A stretch of 64,000 bases of DNA from Desulfocurvibacter africanus subsp. africanus DSM 2603 (lineage in GTDB: Bacteria > Desulfobacterota > Desulfovibrionia > Desulfovibrionales > Desulfovibrionaceae), in the NCBI RefSeq assembly GCF_000422545.1, contig NZ_AULZ01000001.1, positions 310,001 to 374,000 on the forward strand, in the 5' to 3' direction. Shown in pieces: positions 31,800 through 57,678 of this stretch. The position numbers were made by a program, and so were the translations under genes. Position 1 is the stretch's first letter. The number at the start of each line of letters is the position of its first letter. A model generated the notes under the pieces. That model saw nothing but the letters and a program-made list of their open reading frames with translations. It did not search any database and was not told the origin of the DNA.

Positions 31800-31970
31800 A
31801 TGCTCGGATTCGGCAGCCTCGAAGTGGCCTTGGCGTATTGGGCCTGCCTGGCGGCAACGACCCTGTGCGTCGCTTTCGGCGTGCTTAACTGGAACAAGCG
31901 CGGCGAGCCGGACAAGGTCAAGCTCAAGAAGTTCGTCCTACCCAAGGCGGACAGCGAGAAGAGCGCCTAG
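31800..31970 (+). CDS. Small membrane protein next to SSS symporter
   Basis: 56-residue protein with one hydrophobic helix (VALAYWACLAATTLCVAFGV) and a Lys-rich tail (KVKLKKFVLPKADSEKSA). I recall such proteins being called symporter small accessory proteins when they stand directly before an SSS-family gene, as here (96 bases upstream). ATG at 31800 with GGGGGGA upstream. Longer frames upstream are shadows. Confidence 0.7.
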   Translation: MLGFGSLEVALAYWACLAATTLCVAFGVLNWNKRGEPDKVKLKKFVLPKADSEKSA

Positions 31971-32066: not shown

Positions 32067-33662
32067 ATGACCGTGAAGCTCGTCATCGCCCTCATCTATT
32101 TGGGCGTGGTTTTTTACCTCGGCTACGTGGGCTGGAAGCACACGCGCGAGGCCGCGGACTACATGCTGGCCGGACGGCGCATGAACCCGTTCATCATGGC
32201 CATGTCCTACGGGGCCACGTTCATCTCCACCTCGGCCATCGTGGGCTTCGGCGGCGTGGCCTCGCTGTTCGGCTTTCCGCTGCTGTGGCTGACCTTCGCC
32301 AACATTTTCGTGGGCATCTTCATCGCCATGGTCTTCTTCGGCCGGCGCACGCGGCGCATGGGCGTGGCCCTGGACAGTCACACCTTCCCCGAGCTCCTGG
32401 GCCGGCGCTTCAAGAGCCGCTTCATCCAGGGCTTCGCCGGGCTGGTCATCTTCCTGTTCATCCCGGTCTACGCCGCGGCCGTGCTCATCGGCATCTCGCG
32501 CATGATCGAGGTCTCGCTCGGCATCCCCTACGCGGCCGCGCTCATCGGCTTCACGCTCATTCTGGCCGTGTACGTGGTCACGGGCGGCATGAAGGCGGTC
32601 ATGTACACCGACGCCTTCCAGGGCGGCATCATGGTCGTCATGATGCTCATCCTGGTGGCCCACACCTACTCCCTGCTGGGCGGCGTCGTCCCGGCCCACC
32701 AGGCCCTGACGGACATGGCCGCGCTCATGCCCGAGAAACTACGCGCGGGCGGGCTGGAAGGCTGGACCCAGGGCACGCGCTTTGGCACTCCGCTATGGCT
32801 GACCATCTACACGACGATCGTCTTCGGCGTGGGCGTTGGCGTACTGGCCCAGCCCCAGTTGGCCGTGCGCTACATGACCGTATCCTCGGACCGCCAGCTC
32901 AACCGGGCCGTGCTCTACGGCGGCGTGTTCATCCTGCTCATGACCGGCGTGGCCTTCGTAGTGGGTGCGTTGTCCAACGTGATCTTCCACCAGACGACCG
33001 GCAAGCTCGCCATCGCCGTGGCCGGCGGCAATGTGGACGTGGTCATACCGACCTACATCGAGACCATCATGCCGGCCTGGTTCTCCACGCTCTTCCTCAT
33101 GGCCATGCTCGCCGCGGCCATGTCCACCCTGTCCTCCCAGTACCACGCGGGCGGCACTTCCCTTGGCCGCGACCTGCTGGAAAAGGGCCTTGGGCTCGGC
33201 AAGCAGGAGTCCATCAAGGGCACCCAGTGGGGCGTCGTGGTGACCATCGCCATGGGCCTGGTGTGGGCGCTGTTCCTGCCCGAGTCGGTCATCGCCAAGG
33301 CCACGGCTTTCTTCTTCGGCCTGTGCGCCGCGACGTTTCTGCCGGTCTACTTCCTTGGCCTCTACTGGAAGCGCATGAGCCGCACGGCGGCCGTGGCCTC
33401 CATGCTGGGCGGCTTCGGCTTCTCCATGTTCTGGCTGCTGTTCGTCCATGAAGCCGAGGCCAAGGTCATCGGCCTGTGCCAGATCCTGTTCGGCAAGGCC
33501 ACCCTGGTCGCCGACGCAACCAAGGGCTCCTGGGTCTTCCTGCTGCAGTGGCTGGACCCGAACATCGTGGCCCTGCCCTTCTCCCTGCTCCTGGCCGTGG
33601 CCGTGGCGCTCGTCACGAGGCACGACGCGGAGCACGCCGAGTACTGCTGGCGGAATTACTAA
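32067..33662 (+). CDS. SSS-family sodium:solute symporter
   Basis: 531-residue membrane protein with about 13-14 helices of the solute:sodium symporter family. It starts in KLVIALIYLGVVFYLGYVGW and contains GRRMNPFIMAMSYGATFISTSA (cut here to 20: MNPFIMAMSYGATFISTSA), the classic unwound helix 1, plus helix 6 and 7 segments AQPQLAVRYMT. Substrate (acetate, pyruvate, proline, etc.) is not known. Start ATG at 32067 with AGGACGG upstream. An internally deleted, partly near-identical copy is at 55381-55710. Confidence 0.92.
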   Translation: MTVKLVIALIYLGVVFYLGYVGWKHTREAADYMLAGRRMNPFIMAMSYGATFISTSAIVGFGGVASLFGFPLLWLTFANIFVGIFIAMVFFGRRTRRMGVALDSHTFPELLGRRFKSRFIQGFAGLVIFLFIPVYAAAVLIGISRMIEVSLGIPYAAALIGFTLILAVYVVTGGMKAVMYTDAFQGGIMVVMMLILVAHTYSLLGGVVPAHQALTDMAALMPEKLRAGGLEGWTQGTRFGTPLWLTIYTTIVFGVGVGVLAQPQLAVRYMTVSSDRQLNRAVLYGGVFILLMTGVAFVVGALSNVIFHQTTGKLAIAVAGGNVDVVIPTYIETIMPAWFSTLFLMAMLAAAMSTLSSQYHAGGTSLGRDLLEKGLGLGKQESIKGTQWGVVVTIAMGLVWALFLPESVIAKATAFFFGLCAATFLPVYFLGLYWKRMSRTAAVASMLGGFGFSMFWLLFVHEAEAKVIGLCQILFGKATLVADATKGSWVFLLQWLDPNIVALPFSLLLAVAVALVTRHDAEHAEYCWRNY

Positions 33663-33675
33663 AGCTAAAGCAAGA

Positions 33676-33742
33676 GCTGGGAAGGGGCGCTGCCCCTCCC
33701 CAGACCCCACCCTGCCAAGCGTAACAACGCCCTGGACCCCGT
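33676..33742 (-). repeat. Repeat family 1, copy 3
   Basis: Read on the minus strand this matches the family order (GGGGTCCAGGG, linker, GGGGAGGGGC..CCCC). It lies after the symporter gene. The next bases 33747-33775 form a separate long hairpin. Confidence 0.85.
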
Positions 33743-48257: not shown

Positions 48258-48519
48258 ATTGTATGGAGTCCTTGGCTAGGGGTCGCAGAACGGCATGGCT
48301 GTTACTGGAAGAGCCTTGCGCTTGCAAGAGTGGCCCCGCGCCGTGGCCGCGCCGGGATACGTCGGATCCAATATTATTATATCTACTTGGACGGCCCTGA
48401 CAAACTCTCTTGACAACTGGCGTTTTACGTAAATGGAAAACCTTGTGCTTTCCTGTCTAGTTGCGTATGAAAACCAAGCCTCAATGCTGCACCACTTACA
48501 TTTCTATCGGGGAGGTACC

Positions 48520-49707
48520 ATGAAAAGAAGCGGTCTTCTGCTTGCGTTGGTTTTCTCGCTCGGGCTGCTCCTGACCGCCGGTTGCGGCGGCGATGAACAG
48601 AAGCCGGCCTCACAGGAAGGTGGCAATATCGTCATCGGCTTCAACATCCCCCTGACGGGCGACATCCCCAAGGTGGGCGAGTCCTCGCGGCAGGCAGCCG
48701 AGATGTACCTTCAGCAGGTCGGCGGCAAGATCGACATCGCCGGCAAGCCCTACACCCTGAAGTTCGTTTACGAAGACAACGAGTCCAAGGCCGAGTCCGC
48801 GGTCAACGCCCAGCTCAAGCTCATTGAGCAGGACAAGGCCCTGGGCATCATCGGCCCCATGGCCTCCAAGCAGGCCGTGCCAGGCGGCGAAGTGGCCGAC
48901 GCCAACCAGACGCCCATGATCGCGCCCTGGTCCACCAACCCGGCCACGACCACCGATCGTCCCTTCGTGTTCCGCGCCTGTTTCCTCGACCCGTTCCAGG
49001 GCCCCGTGGTTGCCAAGTTCGCCACCGAGGAGTTCGGCGCCAAGAAGGCCGCCGTGCTCTTCGACGTCGCCAGCGACTATCCCAAAGGCCTGGCCGAGTT
49101 CTTCAAGGCCGCCTGGGAAGAGATCCACGGACCCGGCTCCGTGGTGGCCTTTGAATCCTTCACCACCAAGGACCAGGACTTCAGCGCCCAGTTGACCAAC
49201 ATCATCCGCTCCGGCGCCGACGTGCTGTTCACTCCCCAGTACTACTCCGAGGTTGCCCTCATCGTGAAGCAGGCCAAGGAACTGGGCTGGAACAAGCCCA
49301 TCATGGGTTCCGACTCCTGGGGTTCCGCTGAGCTCATGACCCTGTGCGGCGACGCCTGCAAGGGCTACTACTTCTCCACGCACTACGCCGCCGCCGGCGC
49401 CACGGGCAAGACCAAGGAATTCATCGACGCCTTCAAGTCCAAGTACGGCTACGTGCCCGACGACGTTGCCGCTCTGACCTGGGACGCCCTTGGCATGATG
49501 GTCCAGGCCATCCAGAACGCCCCGCTGACCGGCAATCTGGCCCAGGATCGCGTGGCCGTGAAGGATGCCCTTGCCGCCATTCCGTCCTACGACGGCATCA
49601 CCGGCTCCATGAAGTTCGACCCGCAGGGCGACCCGGTTAAGTCCGCGGTCATCGTCAAGATCAACGATGCCGGCGAGTTCGAGTTCTTCAAGTCCGTGGC
49701 CCCTTAA
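48520..49707 (+). CDS. Branched-chain amino acid ABC transporter, substrate-binding lipoprotein
   Basis: 395-residue periplasmic-binding lipoprotein (lipobox LTAGCGG, cysteine near residue 22) of the LivJ/K-type Leu/Ile/Val-binding family. IVIGFNIPLTGDIPKVG, YTLKFVYEDNESKAESA and IGPMASKQA (ligand contact loop) are typical. First gene of the Liv operon. GGGGAGG is six bases from the ATG. A strong hairpin (49733) separates it from livH, so the binding protein may be made in excess. Confidence 0.92.
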   Translation: MKRSGLLLALVFSLGLLLTAGCGGDEQKPASQEGGNIVIGFNIPLTGDIPKVGESSRQAAEMYLQQVGGKIDIAGKPYTLKFVYEDNESKAESAVNAQLKLIEQDKALGIIGPMASKQAVPGGEVADANQTPMIAPWSTNPATTTDRPFVFRACFLDPFQGPVVAKFATEEFGAKKAAVLFDVASDYPKGLAEFFKAAWEEIHGPGSVVAFESFTTKDQDFSAQLTNIIRSGADVLFTPQYYSEVALIVKQAKELGWNKPIMGSDSWGSAELMTLCGDACKGYYFSTHYAAAGATGKTKEFIDAFKSKYGYVPDDVAALTWDALGMMVQAIQNAPLTGNLAQDRVAVKDALAAIPSYDGITGSMKFDPQGDPVKSAVIVKINDAGEFEFFKSVAP

Positions 49708-49732
49708 GGCGGTCCCGGCTATTGTCGACCAT

Positions 49733-49762
49733 GACCGGGAGAGCGTGGCTCTCCCGGTCTTT
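49733..49762 (+). terminator. Intra-operon hairpin after the binding protein gene
   Basis: GACCGGGAGAGC-GTG-GCTCTCCCGGTC followed by TTTTCC, a good intrinsic terminator or attenuator. Confidence 0.8.
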
Positions 49763-49825
49763 TCCGTGCCTCGCGGCACGGGCCCGCGGCGGGCGGACGC
49801 CGCGCTGAAGCATTAGAGGTGACCC

Positions 49826-50749
49826 GTGCTTGAGAGCCTGATCCAGAACGTGCTCAACGCCCTGCAGTGGGGAAGCTACTACTCGCTCATCGCCCTGGGC
49901 TACTGTCTGGTCTACGGCGTGTTGCTGCTCATCAATTTCGCCCATGGCGACATATTCATGGTCGGGGCCTTCATCGGTCTCGGCGTGGCCACGTTCTTCC
50001 TGGGCAATCTCGGCCCCGAACTGGGCCTATCCGGCCCCGTGGTGCTCGCCCTAACCATCCCGCTGACCATGATCCTCACCGCGGCCGTGGGCGTGACGCT
50101 GGAGCGCATCGCCTATAGGCCGCTTAGGCGCAAGGGCGCGCACAGGCTGTACGTGGTCATCACCGCGCTCATGTGCGGCCTGGTCCTGGAGAACGGCAAC
50201 CTGGCCATCCTGGGCGCTAGCCGCCGCAGCTTTCCGCAGCTCATCCCCACCCAGGTCTACGACTTCGGCCTATTCTCGGTGACCAATGTGAAGATCGCGG
50301 TTATCCTCGCCGCCATCCTCGTATTCATCTTTCTGCAGTTCGTGGTCACCAAGACCAAAATGGGCATGGCCATGCGCGCCATCTCCTGGGATAAATTCGC
50401 CATCCCGCTCATGGGCATCCCCGTGGACAGCATCATCGTGTTTACCTTCATCCTGGGCTCCGGTTTCGCCGGACTGGCCGGCGTGCTCTTCGCCATGAGC
50501 TACCCGGTGCTGGAGCCATACATGGGCGCCATGGTGGGCTGGAAAGCCTTCATCGCCGCCGTGGTAGGCGGCATCGGCGACATCCGCGGAGCCTTTGCCG
50601 GAGGCTTCCTGCTCGGGTTCGTGGAGATCATGGTCGTGGCGGTCTTCCCCTCCACCATGCGCGACCTCATCAGCTTCACCATCCTCCTGGTCATCCTGAC
50701 CTGGAAACCCACGGGCCTTTTCGGCATGGCCAAGACCACCAAGATTTAG
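49826..50749 (+). CDS. livH: Branched-chain amino acid ABC permease LivH
   Basis: 307-residue integral membrane permease, about eight helices. ALGYCLVYGVLLLINFAHGD and the EAA-type loop IGDIRGAFAGGFLLG are typical of LivH. Start is a GTG at 49826 with AGAGGTG upstream. Followed 17 bases on by livM. Confidence 0.93.
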   Translation: MLESLIQNVLNALQWGSYYSLIALGYCLVYGVLLLINFAHGDIFMVGAFIGLGVATFFLGNLGPELGLSGPVVLALTIPLTMILTAAVGVTLERIAYRPLRRKGAHRLYVVITALMCGLVLENGNLAILGASRRSFPQLIPTQVYDFGLFSVTNVKIAVILAAILVFIFLQFVVTKTKMGMAMRAISWDKFAIPLMGIPVDSIIVFTFILGSGFAGLAGVLFAMSYPVLEPYMGAMVGWKAFIAAVVGGIGDIRGAFAGGFLLGFVEIMVVAVFPSTMRDLISFTILLVILTWKPTGLFGMAKTTKI

Positions 50750-50766
50750 GGAGAGGGGGAAGTCAC

Positions 50767-51909
50767 ATGGCAATCCGCAACGATCCGGGCGCGACCATCC
50801 GCGCCGGTGAGACCCTGGCCACGTCAGGCTTCGACCTGCGCAGCCTGAGCGTGCCGGCCATCCTGCTCATCGCCTTCGTGGGCCTGCTGGCCGCCTGCAT
50901 GACCGGGGCGCTCAACCTCTATATGCAGACGGTGCTCATGTTCATGGGCATCAACATCATCATGTCCACCAGCCTGAACCTGATCAACGGCAACATGGGC
51001 GAGTTCGCCTGCGGCCACGCCGCGTTCATGGCCGTGGGCGCTTACGTGTCTTCCCTCGTCACCGTGATCCTGTTCACCCAGAGCAAATTCGGCGCGCCGC
51101 TCCTTCCGCCGGAACTGACCCTGCTGGCCTTTCCCCTGGCGCTCCTCATCGGCTCGCTCGCTGCAGCCCTGGTCGGACTGCTCATCGCCATTCCCTCCTT
51201 CAAGACGCGCGGCGACTACCTGGCCATCATCACCATCGCGGCCCTGTATATCGTCAAGAGCGCCATCGAGAACATCGACGCCATTGGCGGGGCCAGGGGC
51301 TTCATGGGCATGCGCCGCGTGACCAATGCCATGGAGCAGACCCTGGACCTGCCGTGGATGGTCATCTGGATCTTCATCGGCACCGTGTTCACGGTCTGGA
51401 TCATCCGGCGCTACGTTTCCTCGACTTACGGCAAGGGCGTAATGGCCATCTGCCAGGACGAAGTGGCCGCCGAAATCATGAGCGTGAACACGAACCATAT
51501 CAAGCTCGTGACCTTCATGCTCTCCTCGGGGCTGGCGGGGCTGGCGGGCGGTTTGTTCGCCCACGTGCTCGGCTACATCAACCCCGGCTCCTTCACCATC
51601 CTCAAGTCCACCGAGGCCCTGGTCATGGTCTACCTGGGCGGCATGGGCTCCATTTCCGGCGCGGTCATGTCCGCCATGCTGTTCACCCTGCTGCTGGAGT
51701 CCCTGCGCTTCATCATCCCCTGGATCGACCAGTTGCTGCACCTGATCCATGTGCTGCCCGCGGGCTACGAGATTTCCCAGGTATGGAAGTGGGTGCTCAT
51801 CCCGCTCCTGCTCATCCTGCTCATGCAGTTCCGGCCCGAGGGCATCATGGGCAACCGCGAGCTGTCGGACATTTTCCCGCGGCTGCGGAAGTTCTATAAA
51901 TTCAAGTAA
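50767..51909 (+). CDS. livM: Branched-chain amino acid ABC permease LivM
   Basis: 380-residue permease with about nine helices. LNLINGNMGEFACGHAAFMAVGAY and GGARGFMGM, and the permease loop GMGSISGAVMSAMLFTLLLE (20 residues), fit LivM. The N-terminal 25 residues precede the first helix. GGGAG precedes the ATG; livG follows after 18 bases. Confidence 0.93.
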   Translation: MAIRNDPGATIRAGETLATSGFDLRSLSVPAILLIAFVGLLAACMTGALNLYMQTVLMFMGINIIMSTSLNLINGNMGEFACGHAAFMAVGAYVSSLVTVILFTQSKFGAPLLPPELTLLAFPLALLIGSLAAALVGLLIAIPSFKTRGDYLAIITIAALYIVKSAIENIDAIGGARGFMGMRRVTNAMEQTLDLPWMVIWIFIGTVFTVWIIRRYVSSTYGKGVMAICQDEVAAEIMSVNTNHIKLVTFMLSSGLAGLAGGLFAHVLGYINPGSFTILKSTEALVMVYLGGMGSISGAVMSAMLFTLLLESLRFIIPWIDQLLHLIHVLPAGYEISQVWKWVLIPLLLILLMQFRPEGIMGNRELSDIFPRLRKFYKFK

Positions 51910-51927
51910 GCCTTCGAGGAGATTGCC

Positions 51928-53420
<1,493 letters not shown>

Positions 53421-54072: not shown

Positions 54073-55137
54073 CTACGCCTTGCACACGCCCGCGCCAGAA
54101 AACGTGGCCATCTCGTTGAAGATGGCTGCTGCAGAGCGCATCACGAACAGGGCCATGGCCGCGCCGGTGCCCTCGCCCAGGCGCAGACCCAGGTGCAGGA
54201 GCGGGTCGGCCTTCAGGACCTGCATGATGCTCGCATAGCCGGGCTCGGCCGAGGCGTGGCTCAGGAAGCAGTAGTCGGCCACGGCCGGGCAGAGCTTCCA
54301 GGCCGAGACATAGGCCGCAGTGGAAATGAAGCCGTCCACGGCCACGGCCATGCGCCTGCCGGCAGCGCCGATGATCAGGCCGGACAAAGCCGCGATTTCC
54401 AGACCGCCCAATGCCGCCAGAATGCGCAAGGGGTCGCCCGAGGTCACGGCCGTCTGGTTGGCCACCAGTCCTCGGCGGATGACCTCGATCTTGCGACGAA
54501 GGCCATCGGCCGCCAAGCCGGTGCCGGGGCCGGTGATCTTTTCCGGGTCCAGTCCCAGGTAGGCGCAGAACAAGGCCGTTGACGGCGTGGTGTTGGCGAT
54601 GCCCATGTCGCCGGTGCCCACAGCGCGGCAGCCCTCGTCCGCGGCCATGTTGGCCAAGTCTATGCCCAGCTCCAGGGCTCGTGTGCAGTCCTCGGCGCTC
54701 ATGGCCGGTCCCACGGCCAAATTGTCCGTGCCGGGCCGGACCTTGCGCTGAATCAGGGCCGGGTGCTCGGGATAGGTCCCGCCCACGGTGCCTGCGTCCA
54801 CCACGCTCAGACCGATGCCCGCCGTGCGGGCCAGCACGTTGATGCCCGCGCCGCCATTGGCGAAATTGAGAACCATCTGGCGAGAGACTTCCTGCGGAAA
54901 CAGGCTCACGCCTTCGGCGGCCACGCCGTGGTCGCCGGCGATGGTGAAGATGCGCGCCGGATCGACGCTCGGCTTGGAGCCCCCGGAGATGAGATAGAGC
55001 CGCAGCGCGACTTCTTCCAACCGTCCCAGGCTGCCCCTGGGCTTGGTCAGGTCGTCCAAGTGGGCCTGGCCTTGCGGGATAAGGCTCGTGTCCACGGGCT
55101 GAACAGCGGTCAGGACTTGTCGCAAACGCTCGCTCAT
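54073..55137 (-). CDS. cobT: Nicotinate-nucleotide--dimethylbenzimidazole phosphoribosyltransferase
   Basis: 354-residue CobT, which makes alpha-ribazole phosphate for the lower ligand of cobalamin. DDLTKPRGSLGRLEE, FTIAGDHGVAAEGVS and GTGDMGIANTTPS are diagnostic, and the catalytic glutamate is in GEGTGAAMAL near residue 325. The ATG at 55137 has AAGGAA upstream. No cobalamin riboswitch is visible ahead of it. Confidence 0.95.
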   Translation of the reverse strand: MSERLRQVLTAVQPVDTSLIPQGQAHLDDLTKPRGSLGRLEEVALRLYLISGGSKPSVDPARIFTIAGDHGVAAEGVSLFPQEVSRQMVLNFANGGAGINVLARTAGIGLSVVDAGTVGGTYPEHPALIQRKVRPGTDNLAVGPAMSAEDCTRALELGIDLANMAADEGCRAVGTGDMGIANTTPSTALFCAYLGLDPEKITGPGTGLAADGLRRKIEVIRRGLVANQTAVTSGDPLRILAALGGLEIAALSGLIIGAAGRRMAVAVDGFISTAAYVSAWKLCPAVADYCFLSHASAEPGYASIMQVLKADPLLHLGLRLGEGTGAAMALFVMRSAAAIFNEMATFSGAGVCKA

Positions 55138-55380
55138 TTCGTTCCTTCCCTATCGCGTGTCGCGGATATTGTTTAAGAAAGGCAAAGTAAATACGCCACA
55201 TCCAGCCACAGGTCCACGGTAAAATGGGCTGCGAATCAACCGCTTGGATATAGTTGAAGCACGCCTGGGGCAAATCGCGTTGCTCCATCAAATCCATGCT
55301 CTATAGTTGACGGGGATGCACCAAGCGGTAAAACGGAACGTCCTTGTCCATACACCGTACGGGAACGTTGACGCATAACC

Positions 55381-55710
55381 GTGAAGCTGTTTGTTTCGCT
55401 GGCTTACTTGGGCGTGGTTTTTTACCTCGGCTACGTGGGCTGGAAGCACACGCGCGAGGCCGCGGACTACATGCTGGGCGGCTTCGGCTTCTCCATGTTC
55501 TGGCTGCTGTTCGTGTTCGAGTCGGTGGCCAAGGCCATCGGCCTGTGCCAGATCCTGTTCGTGGTCGCCGACGCAACCAAGGGTTCCTGGGTCTTCCTGC
55601 TGCATTGGCTGGACCCGAACATAGTGGCCCTGCCGCTATCCCTGCTCCTGGCCGTGCTCGCAACCCTGGCCACACGCCACGACGCCGAGCACTGCTGGCG
55701 GAATTACTGA
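55381..55710 (+). pseudogene. Internally deleted copy of the SSS symporter
   Basis: Open frame of 109 codons from a GTG. Codons 1-32 match residues 3-34 of the symporter at 32067 (nearly identical DNA over about 70 bases), then jump to residue 446 and continue to the same C-terminus. About 410 residues are missing. The junction lies at CATGCTGG, a sequence present at both ends of the deletion. Further losses are multiples of three. The parent start ATG is ATA here, so only the GTG two codons later remains. No clear ribosome binding site. It may be a dead copy. Confidence 0.85.
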
Positions 55711-55756
55711 GGCCGGTTCGCGAGGTTTGTTTGCAAGGACTACGTCAGCCTGAATG

Positions 55757-55798
55757 GGGTTTCCAAAGGGGCATTGCCCCTTTGGCCGCCGGAGACTT
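55757..55798 (-). repeat. Repeat family 3, copy 3
   Basis: CCAAAGGGGCATTGCCCCTTTGG hairpin (shown here as stem CCAAAGGGGC, loop ATT) followed by CCGCCGGAGAC, the family core in the reverse order. Confidence 0.65.
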
Positions 55799-55942
55799 CC
55801 CCATGGCGCGCGGATGCGGCCGCCGGATCATGCAGTGCCCGCAAATCCTGGCAGGCTCCTTGCTATCCTGGCTTTGCGCCCCGTGAGACCGTCACTTTAT
55901 CCACGCGCGGGCGAATCATCTTCCATCCTGCAAGGAACTACA

Positions 55943-57064
55943 GTGCCTATTCCAGCTTTGCCCTGCATCACGCGTCATCCACGTTTGCTGGTCTGCGCTC
56001 TTCTGGCCATGGTCATTGCCTGTAGCGCCATGACGCATGCCGCTACATCCCCGTTCTTCGGCCCGGCCCGGAGTCAGCCAGCCGTCGAAACCTCCGCTGG
56101 TGCGCAGGACGTGGTAGACGAGAGAGACGCGGGAACCGAGCCGCCCGCAGAGGAGGCTCCAACCGCCTCGACACTCGGCAAGACACCTGGATCCTCGCCC
56201 TTTTTCAGCGCCGTGCCTGCACCTGCAGCGCCGCCGGAAGCGGCCGCGCCCCAGGTCCTGGAATCCGTCGGTGAAGTGGCCGAGCCCTGGCTACCTGTAC
56301 GGCTCTGGCAACGCACTCTGACCTGGACCGCCAGTCTGCAAAAGGAGTTGCGCAGCATCATGGCCTCCTTTGCCCGCGATATCCGCGAGAACCCCATGGG
56401 CCGCGCCTTCTGGCTTTTCCTGCTGGCGGGCTTCGCCTATGGCGTGGTGCACGCTTTGGGACCCGGCCACGGCAAGAGCTTTGTCTGCAGCTACTTCCTG
56501 AGCCGCCATGGCAGCATCCTGCAAGGCTTGGCCTTGGGCACAGGCAGCATGCTCACGCACGTCGGCTCGGCGGGGCTGCTGGTCATCGTCCTCAATCTCG
56601 TCCTGGAGCGCGCGGGCATGGCCGACTTCGACAGCCAGGGCGCGCTCCTGCAACGCATCAGTTACGGCCTGCTCATGGCCTTGGGCGCGCTGCTCACGGT
56701 CAAAACCATTCTGGACCTGTTCATGGGCCGGGCGCACGAGCATGCCCACTGTCGGGCCGATACGCGCGGCATGACGGCCGTATCGCTGGGCGCGGGACTC
56801 ATCCCCTGTCCTGGCTCGGCCCTCATCCTCATTTTCGCCATCACTCTGGGCATTTTCTGGGCCGGGCTGGCCGCGCTGTTCTTCGTGGCCCTGGGCATGG
56901 CCCTGACCACCTCGCTGTTCGCAGTGGCCACCATCCTCTTCCGCCGCGCCGTGGAGCGCAGCATGAACCGCGACGGCAAACTGGCCCGCATGGCCTTCAC
57001 GACCCTGAGCCTGTGCGGCTCGCTGGCCATCATGCTGCTGGGTGCGGCCTTTTTCTTTGCTTAA
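55943..57064 (+). CDS. NicO/RcnA-type nickel-cobalt transporter
   Basis: 373-residue protein: signal-like helix, a Pro/Ala/Glu-rich linker (about 35-110) and then six membrane helices. The hallmark HALGPGHGKSFV is at about residue 170, with a short His loop AHEHAHC near 265 and LIPCPGSALIL. The start is a GTG at 55943 with CAAGGAA; no ATG is well placed. DUF1007 follows, the usual partner. It probably moves Ni2+ or Co2+; the ech hydrogenase and cobT would need these metals. Confidence 0.85.
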   Translation: MPIPALPCITRHPRLLVCALLAMVIACSAMTHAATSPFFGPARSQPAVETSAGAQDVVDERDAGTEPPAEEAPTASTLGKTPGSSPFFSAVPAPAAPPEAAAPQVLESVGEVAEPWLPVRLWQRTLTWTASLQKELRSIMASFARDIRENPMGRAFWLFLLAGFAYGVVHALGPGHGKSFVCSYFLSRHGSILQGLALGTGSMLTHVGSAGLLVIVLNLVLERAGMADFDSQGALLQRISYGLLMALGALLTVKTILDLFMGRAHEHAHCRADTRGMTAVSLGAGLIPCPGSALILIFAITLGIFWAGLAALFFVALGMALTTSLFAVATILFRRAVERSMNRDGKLARMAFTTLSLCGSLAIMLLGAAFFFA

Positions 57065-57081
57065 GCATGCCGGAGAACATA

Positions 57082-57678
57082 ATGCGCCACGCCATTCTTA
57101 GCCTGCTGACCTTATGCCTTTGCCTCGCACCGCTTCCCGCGGCCGGGCACCCGCACGTATTCATCGACGTCGAGCTTACCTTTGTCTTCGACCTCCAAGG
57201 TTTGACCGGCATCCATCAACGCTGGGTCTTCGACGAGATGTTCTCGTCCCAGATCGTGGACATGGTGGACGCCAACGACGATGGCCGCTTGAGCGAAGCC
57301 GAGGCTCGCAATATCGAGCAGGAGGCCTTCGTTAATCTAAAGAACTTCAATTTCTTCAGTCATGTAGTCGTGGGCGGCCGCAAAGTGGCCTTCAGCAAGG
57401 CTACACAGTTCGTTGCCCGTCAAAATAAAGGCATCCTGAGCTACGAATTCCTTTTGCCCTGTAGCGTGCCAGTGCAGGCCGGCGCCAAAGGCCTTGTCAG
57501 GGTCGCGGTCTACGACCAGAGCTACTACTCGGATGTCGTACTTGTGGATACCAAGCCCAAGCTGCTGGGCACCGAGCACCAAGTCGTGGACATGCAGGTC
57601 CGCGACGCCGAGGCCGTGTACACGGAATGGGGTCCCATCCAGCCCAAGGAAGTATTGCTGAGTTTTGCGCCACGCTAG
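57082..57678 (+). CDS. DUF1007 family exported protein
   Basis: 198-residue exported protein with a signal peptide to about residue 20 (AAGHPHVF), the family start HPHVFIDVELTFVFD, and an EF-hand-like DANDDGRLSEAEA near residue 60. It is the usual partner of NicO transporters and may bind metal. GGAGA is six bases before ATG 57082; an ATG five codons upstream lies inside the previous gene's end. Confidence 0.82.
   Translation: MRHAILSLLTLCLCLAPLPAAGHPHVFIDVELTFVFDLQGLTGIHQRWVFDEMFSSQIVDMVDANDDGRLSEAEARNIEQEAFVNLKNFNFFSHVVVGGRKVAFSKATQFVARQNKGILSYEFLLPCSVPVQAGAKGLVRVAVYDQSYYSDVVLVDTKPKLLGTEHQVVDMQVRDAEAVYTEWGPIQPKEVLLSFAPR

Follow-up and report, generated by a model that had tools for sequence, protein, structure and literature searches.

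A short open frame at 55375–55710 (+ strand) in the 64,000-nucleotide stretch of Desulfocurvibacter africanus DNA analysed here (the window) is probably the dead relic of an older, once functional symporter paralogue, which was patchily overwritten by the intact symporter gene and lost its middle at a short direct repeat. The intact parent lies 23 kb away at 32067–33662 (+ strand) and encodes a sodium/solute symporter of 531 aa, whose match to the Pfam SSF domain (PF00474) covers residues 32–449. It belongs to the sodium:solute symporter family (PF00474, TIGR00813), in the subgroup that carries a symporter small accessory protein (NF045580); the accessory gene is found upstream of the parent at 31800–31970 (+ strand).

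Anatomy and setting of the remnant

Codon alignment with 32067–33662 showed that the remnant comprises 111 codons, running from an ATA at the former start site to a TGA at 55708–55710, and that it keeps the first 32 and the last 86 codons of the symporter (codons 1–32 and 446–531). The initial annotation had described a frame of 109 codons, which opens at a GTG at 55381, as the two ends of the symporter joined with about 410 residues missing; at the DNA level its coordinates, frame and junction all hold, with 413 codons absent, as do the open frame and the replacement of the parental ATG by ATA. Similarity to the parent is far above chance (blastn E 2e-76 and 2e-34), and apart from the remnant the genome contains no symporter relative of such similarity. 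Truncated relative to all orthologues, and with its start lost and key residues changed, it has the make-up of a pseudogene. At three positions that are conserved among the orthologues, H461 (32/35), E464 (33/35) and Q494 (35/35), the remnant has F, V and H, respectively; F at 461 and V at 464 also co-occur in one intact relative (G105).

Homology to the parent starts at the CAT/ATA immediately before 55375 and ends with the stop codon, and beyond these limits the flanks of the two loci have no DNA in common except a genome-wide palindromic repeat. This dispersed element, with a AAGGGGCATTGCCCCTTT core, lies at 55756–55811 and recurs at nine or more other genomic sites; downstream of the parent symporter, near 33680, there is a related copy. 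The remnant sits between cobT (54073–55137, minus strand) and a NicO, nickel/cobalt transporter-like gene (55754–57064). The latter forms a pair with a DUF1007 gene (55754–57678), and a second copy of the pair is found elsewhere in the genome (NicO copy at G000:C5:137723–138847, 64% identity). The intergenic stretch at 55138–55374 is low in G+C (51% vs 63% in the window) and contains no recognisable gene; when 257 family genomes were searched, the 241 bp upstream of the remnant matched its own genome only. A plasmid search with the remnant region gave no match, an Rfam search across 53–58.5 kb returned nothing, and no remnant of the accessory gene was detected upstream of the symporter remnant.

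The cobT neighbourhoods of 14 relatives contain neither a symporter nor a remnant. At one locus (L115, G047:C50:98001–110000), cobT likewise adjoins an operon resembling the branched-chain amino-acid ABC transporter-like operon at 48433–53417 of the window, whereas the symporter on that contig comes after another operon of this type (L116). Among 257 family genomes (its own being the sole member of the genus, near-identical records left out), the same fusion junction was found nowhere else. The genome is a draft in 40 contigs, which leaves room for an assembly artefact fusing two symporter stretches; yet the remnant carries about 42 substitutions of its own relative to the parent and two private deletions, and its flanks are unique and lie inside a 484-kb contig, so that we regard such an artefact as scarcely credible.

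The deletion junction and the smaller losses

Relative to the parent, 1239 nt (413 codons) are missing at the junction. As proposed in the initial annotation, the 8-bp direct repeat CATGCTGG is present at both parental endpoints, and a single copy is left at the junction (55470–55477, + strand), the arrangement that marks deletion between short direct repeats. Only 0.083% (0.00083) of endpoint pairs drawn at random from the parent share microhomology of at least 8 bp, which gives good support to a loss directed by the repeat; the deletion mechanism put forward in that annotation is probably right. RecA-independent deletion between short direct repeats has been documented in E. coli (PMC5426353). 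The remnant resembles bacterial pseudogenes formed by such deletion in its 8-bp repeat, the one copy kept and the 1239 nt lost, and differs from them in that its junction falls within a stretch that matches an intact paralogue exactly.

Two further losses, of 12 nt and 9 nt, had also been noted previously and are present; each of the three losses has a length divisible by three. The 12-nt loss, near 55561, takes out GCAAGGCCACCC, and at the site of the 9-nt loss the parent carries an imperfect 9-bp tandem (GCGGAGCAC GCCGAGTAC). Neither loss has a counterpart in the 35 orthologues of the alignment.

Mosaic divergence from the intact gene

Differences between the remnant and the parent are clustered in blocks and not evenly spread (all coordinates on the + strand). 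Three blocks are divergent: codons 2–11 (block 1, 55378–55407), codons 47–54 (block 2, 55513–55536, reading VFESVAKA) and codons 95–106 (block 3, 55657–55692, with the 9-nt loss at its end) have identities to the parent of 60%, 62.5% and 67%, respectively, values that fall within the range for the parent against its orthologues in other genera (medians 57%, 54% and 50%). Codons 12–46, in contrast, are 100% identical, forming an exact tract of 107 nt (55408–55514) that runs across the deletion junction and is a candidate conversion tract, and the block of codons 55–94 (55537–55656), which contains the 12-nt deletion, is 94% identical. The ‘first 70 bases’ had been described as almost identical to the parent; the low identity of codons 2–11 contradicts this, and the exact stretch is the one at 55408–55514.

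In the six most similar orthologues, the longest exact run with the parent is at most 22 nt, as against 107 nt in the remnant, and an identity run longer than overall divergence predicts is the mark of gene conversion. When sites polymorphic among the orthologues were shuffled, a run of 76 identical polymorphic sites was reached in 0 of 20,000 shuffles (p < 5e-5). With silent third positions alone, p was about 0.04 for the longest run and about 0.005 for the number of runs, a modest result with few sites behind it. Silent differences amount to 0/23.7 sites in codons 12–46 and to 7/8.3, 4/5.7 and 6/11.7 sites in the divergent blocks (pS 0.84, 0.71 and 0.51; the third count spans codons 95–111), where silent change is thus near saturation while protein change is restrained. 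Overall dN/dS between the remnant and the parent is 0.26 (bootstrap about 0.14–0.44), a value that also reflects evolution prior to the deletion and change on the branch of the parent, with selection before and after the deletion not separable. These figures indicate that the differences accumulated while the protein sequence was constrained, as it would be in a gene still at work.

These patterns bear on the age of the remnant. The initial annotation favoured a duplicated copy, recent in origin, that was cut by a short-homology deletion; in its plainest form, the gene at 32067 would recently have been duplicated and the copy cut at the 8-bp repeat and left to decay neutrally, the clusters of differences arising by multi-base mutation or template switching. 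Large tracts identical to the parent are in keeping with this, as are the single source gene in the genome and residues common to both copies yet rare or absent in the sampled orthologues, for example LDPNI. However, no flanking DNA was copied along with the remnant, and recent duplication followed by neutral decay predicts neither clustered saturation nor a dN/dS of 0.26; randomly placed patches in a pseudogene would not be expected to combine near-saturated silent change with restrained protein change. We therefore consider this history unlikely: the loss of the middle at the repeat and the status of a remnant stand, whereas simple, recent duplication does not fit the blockwise silent differences. 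Near-saturated silent patches beside patches with none point instead to a paralogue of greater age, parts of which the resident gene has overwritten.

Patchy homogenisation has a precedent among relatives. In a related genus (g21), eight species have two tandem symporter copies; in six of these species the copies represent two old, separate lineages, but in G020 and G147 (L118 and L119) they group by genome (98/100, 97/86) and show patchy identity of 72–100% in 20-codon windows, and thus patchy homogenisation of the symporter does occur in the family. In its blocks of paralogue identity amid divergent blocks, the remnant resembles concerted evolution by patchy gene conversion as defined in PMC2720389. 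It differs from the tandem pairs of G020 and G147 in that one partner is a deleted relic 23 kb off.

Function and proposed history

Signals for expression of the remnant were not recognised. There is no in-frame ATG at its start, and no Shine-Dalgarno-like sequence precedes the GTG at 55381, whereas the parent has AGGA. No sigma-70-like promoter was found in 55100–55960, although the organism may use other promoter types. Against Pfam and NCBIfam the remnant gave no domain match at E up to 1; lacking both the SSF domain, which in a functional symporter spans most of the protein, and the accessory gene, it cannot carry the transport core.

It had been suggested that the frame is retained as a short membrane peptide. 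Judged by eye from hydrophobicity, a peptide of ∼109 residues would probably have three transmembrane segments, and it could bind the intact symporter or the small accessory protein and so dampen or regulate transport. The open frame, the three in-frame losses and the overall dN/dS of 0.26 agree with such a role. Nevertheless, the frame stayed open in 28–32% of simulations with 41 randomly placed substitutions and, because about 30% of random placements leave it open, is weak evidence; as for dN/dS, it includes the periods and the branch mentioned above. Considering in addition the GTG start with no evident ribosome site, the lack of a promoter-like site, and the absence of the fusion from all other genomes among the 257 of the family, we find a translated peptide very improbable, if somewhat less so than an assembly artefact, and infer that the remnant has no function.

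The history that we favour would begin with a functional paralogue, either an old duplicate or an acquired relative, lying 23 kb away from the intact symporter. Through gene conversion, the intact gene would have overwritten this paralogue in patches, and the middle 1239 nt would then have been lost between the two copies of CATGCTGG, by slippage or by annealing of the repeat copies. Alternatively, both changes may stem from the same repair event, the copying strand jumping between the repeats with the intact gene as template. Since the identical tract crosses the junction, conversion either extended over the middle ahead of its deletion or took place in one and the same repair event as the deletion, two routes not separable from one genome. 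Loss of the start codon and the two small deletions would have come after or alongside the loss of the middle. The block of codons 55–94 may be an older conversion tract, given the few changes within it.

Against the conversion model, neither flanking homology nor a third copy identifies the source of the paralogue. For divergent block 1, there is no third copy within 3 mismatches in the genome itself; the block 2 motif FVFE.VA occurs in one other genome only (G105, among 348), and its length is insufficient for locating the source. The open frame and the three losses in multiples of three also count against it. On balance, a dead relic is the most likely nature of the frame, which is ordinary in kind and has a modestly interesting history.

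Understanding of the transporter is unchanged by the remnant; were the peptide translated after all, it would be a regulator derived from a broken paralogue. Because identity extends over the junction, a single repair event may account for both conversion and deletion. The remnant also calls for caution: a truncated copy that stays in frame and is nearly identical over some stretches may still be old. As a relic, it would offer a compact record of the homogenisation and loss of bacterial paralogues.
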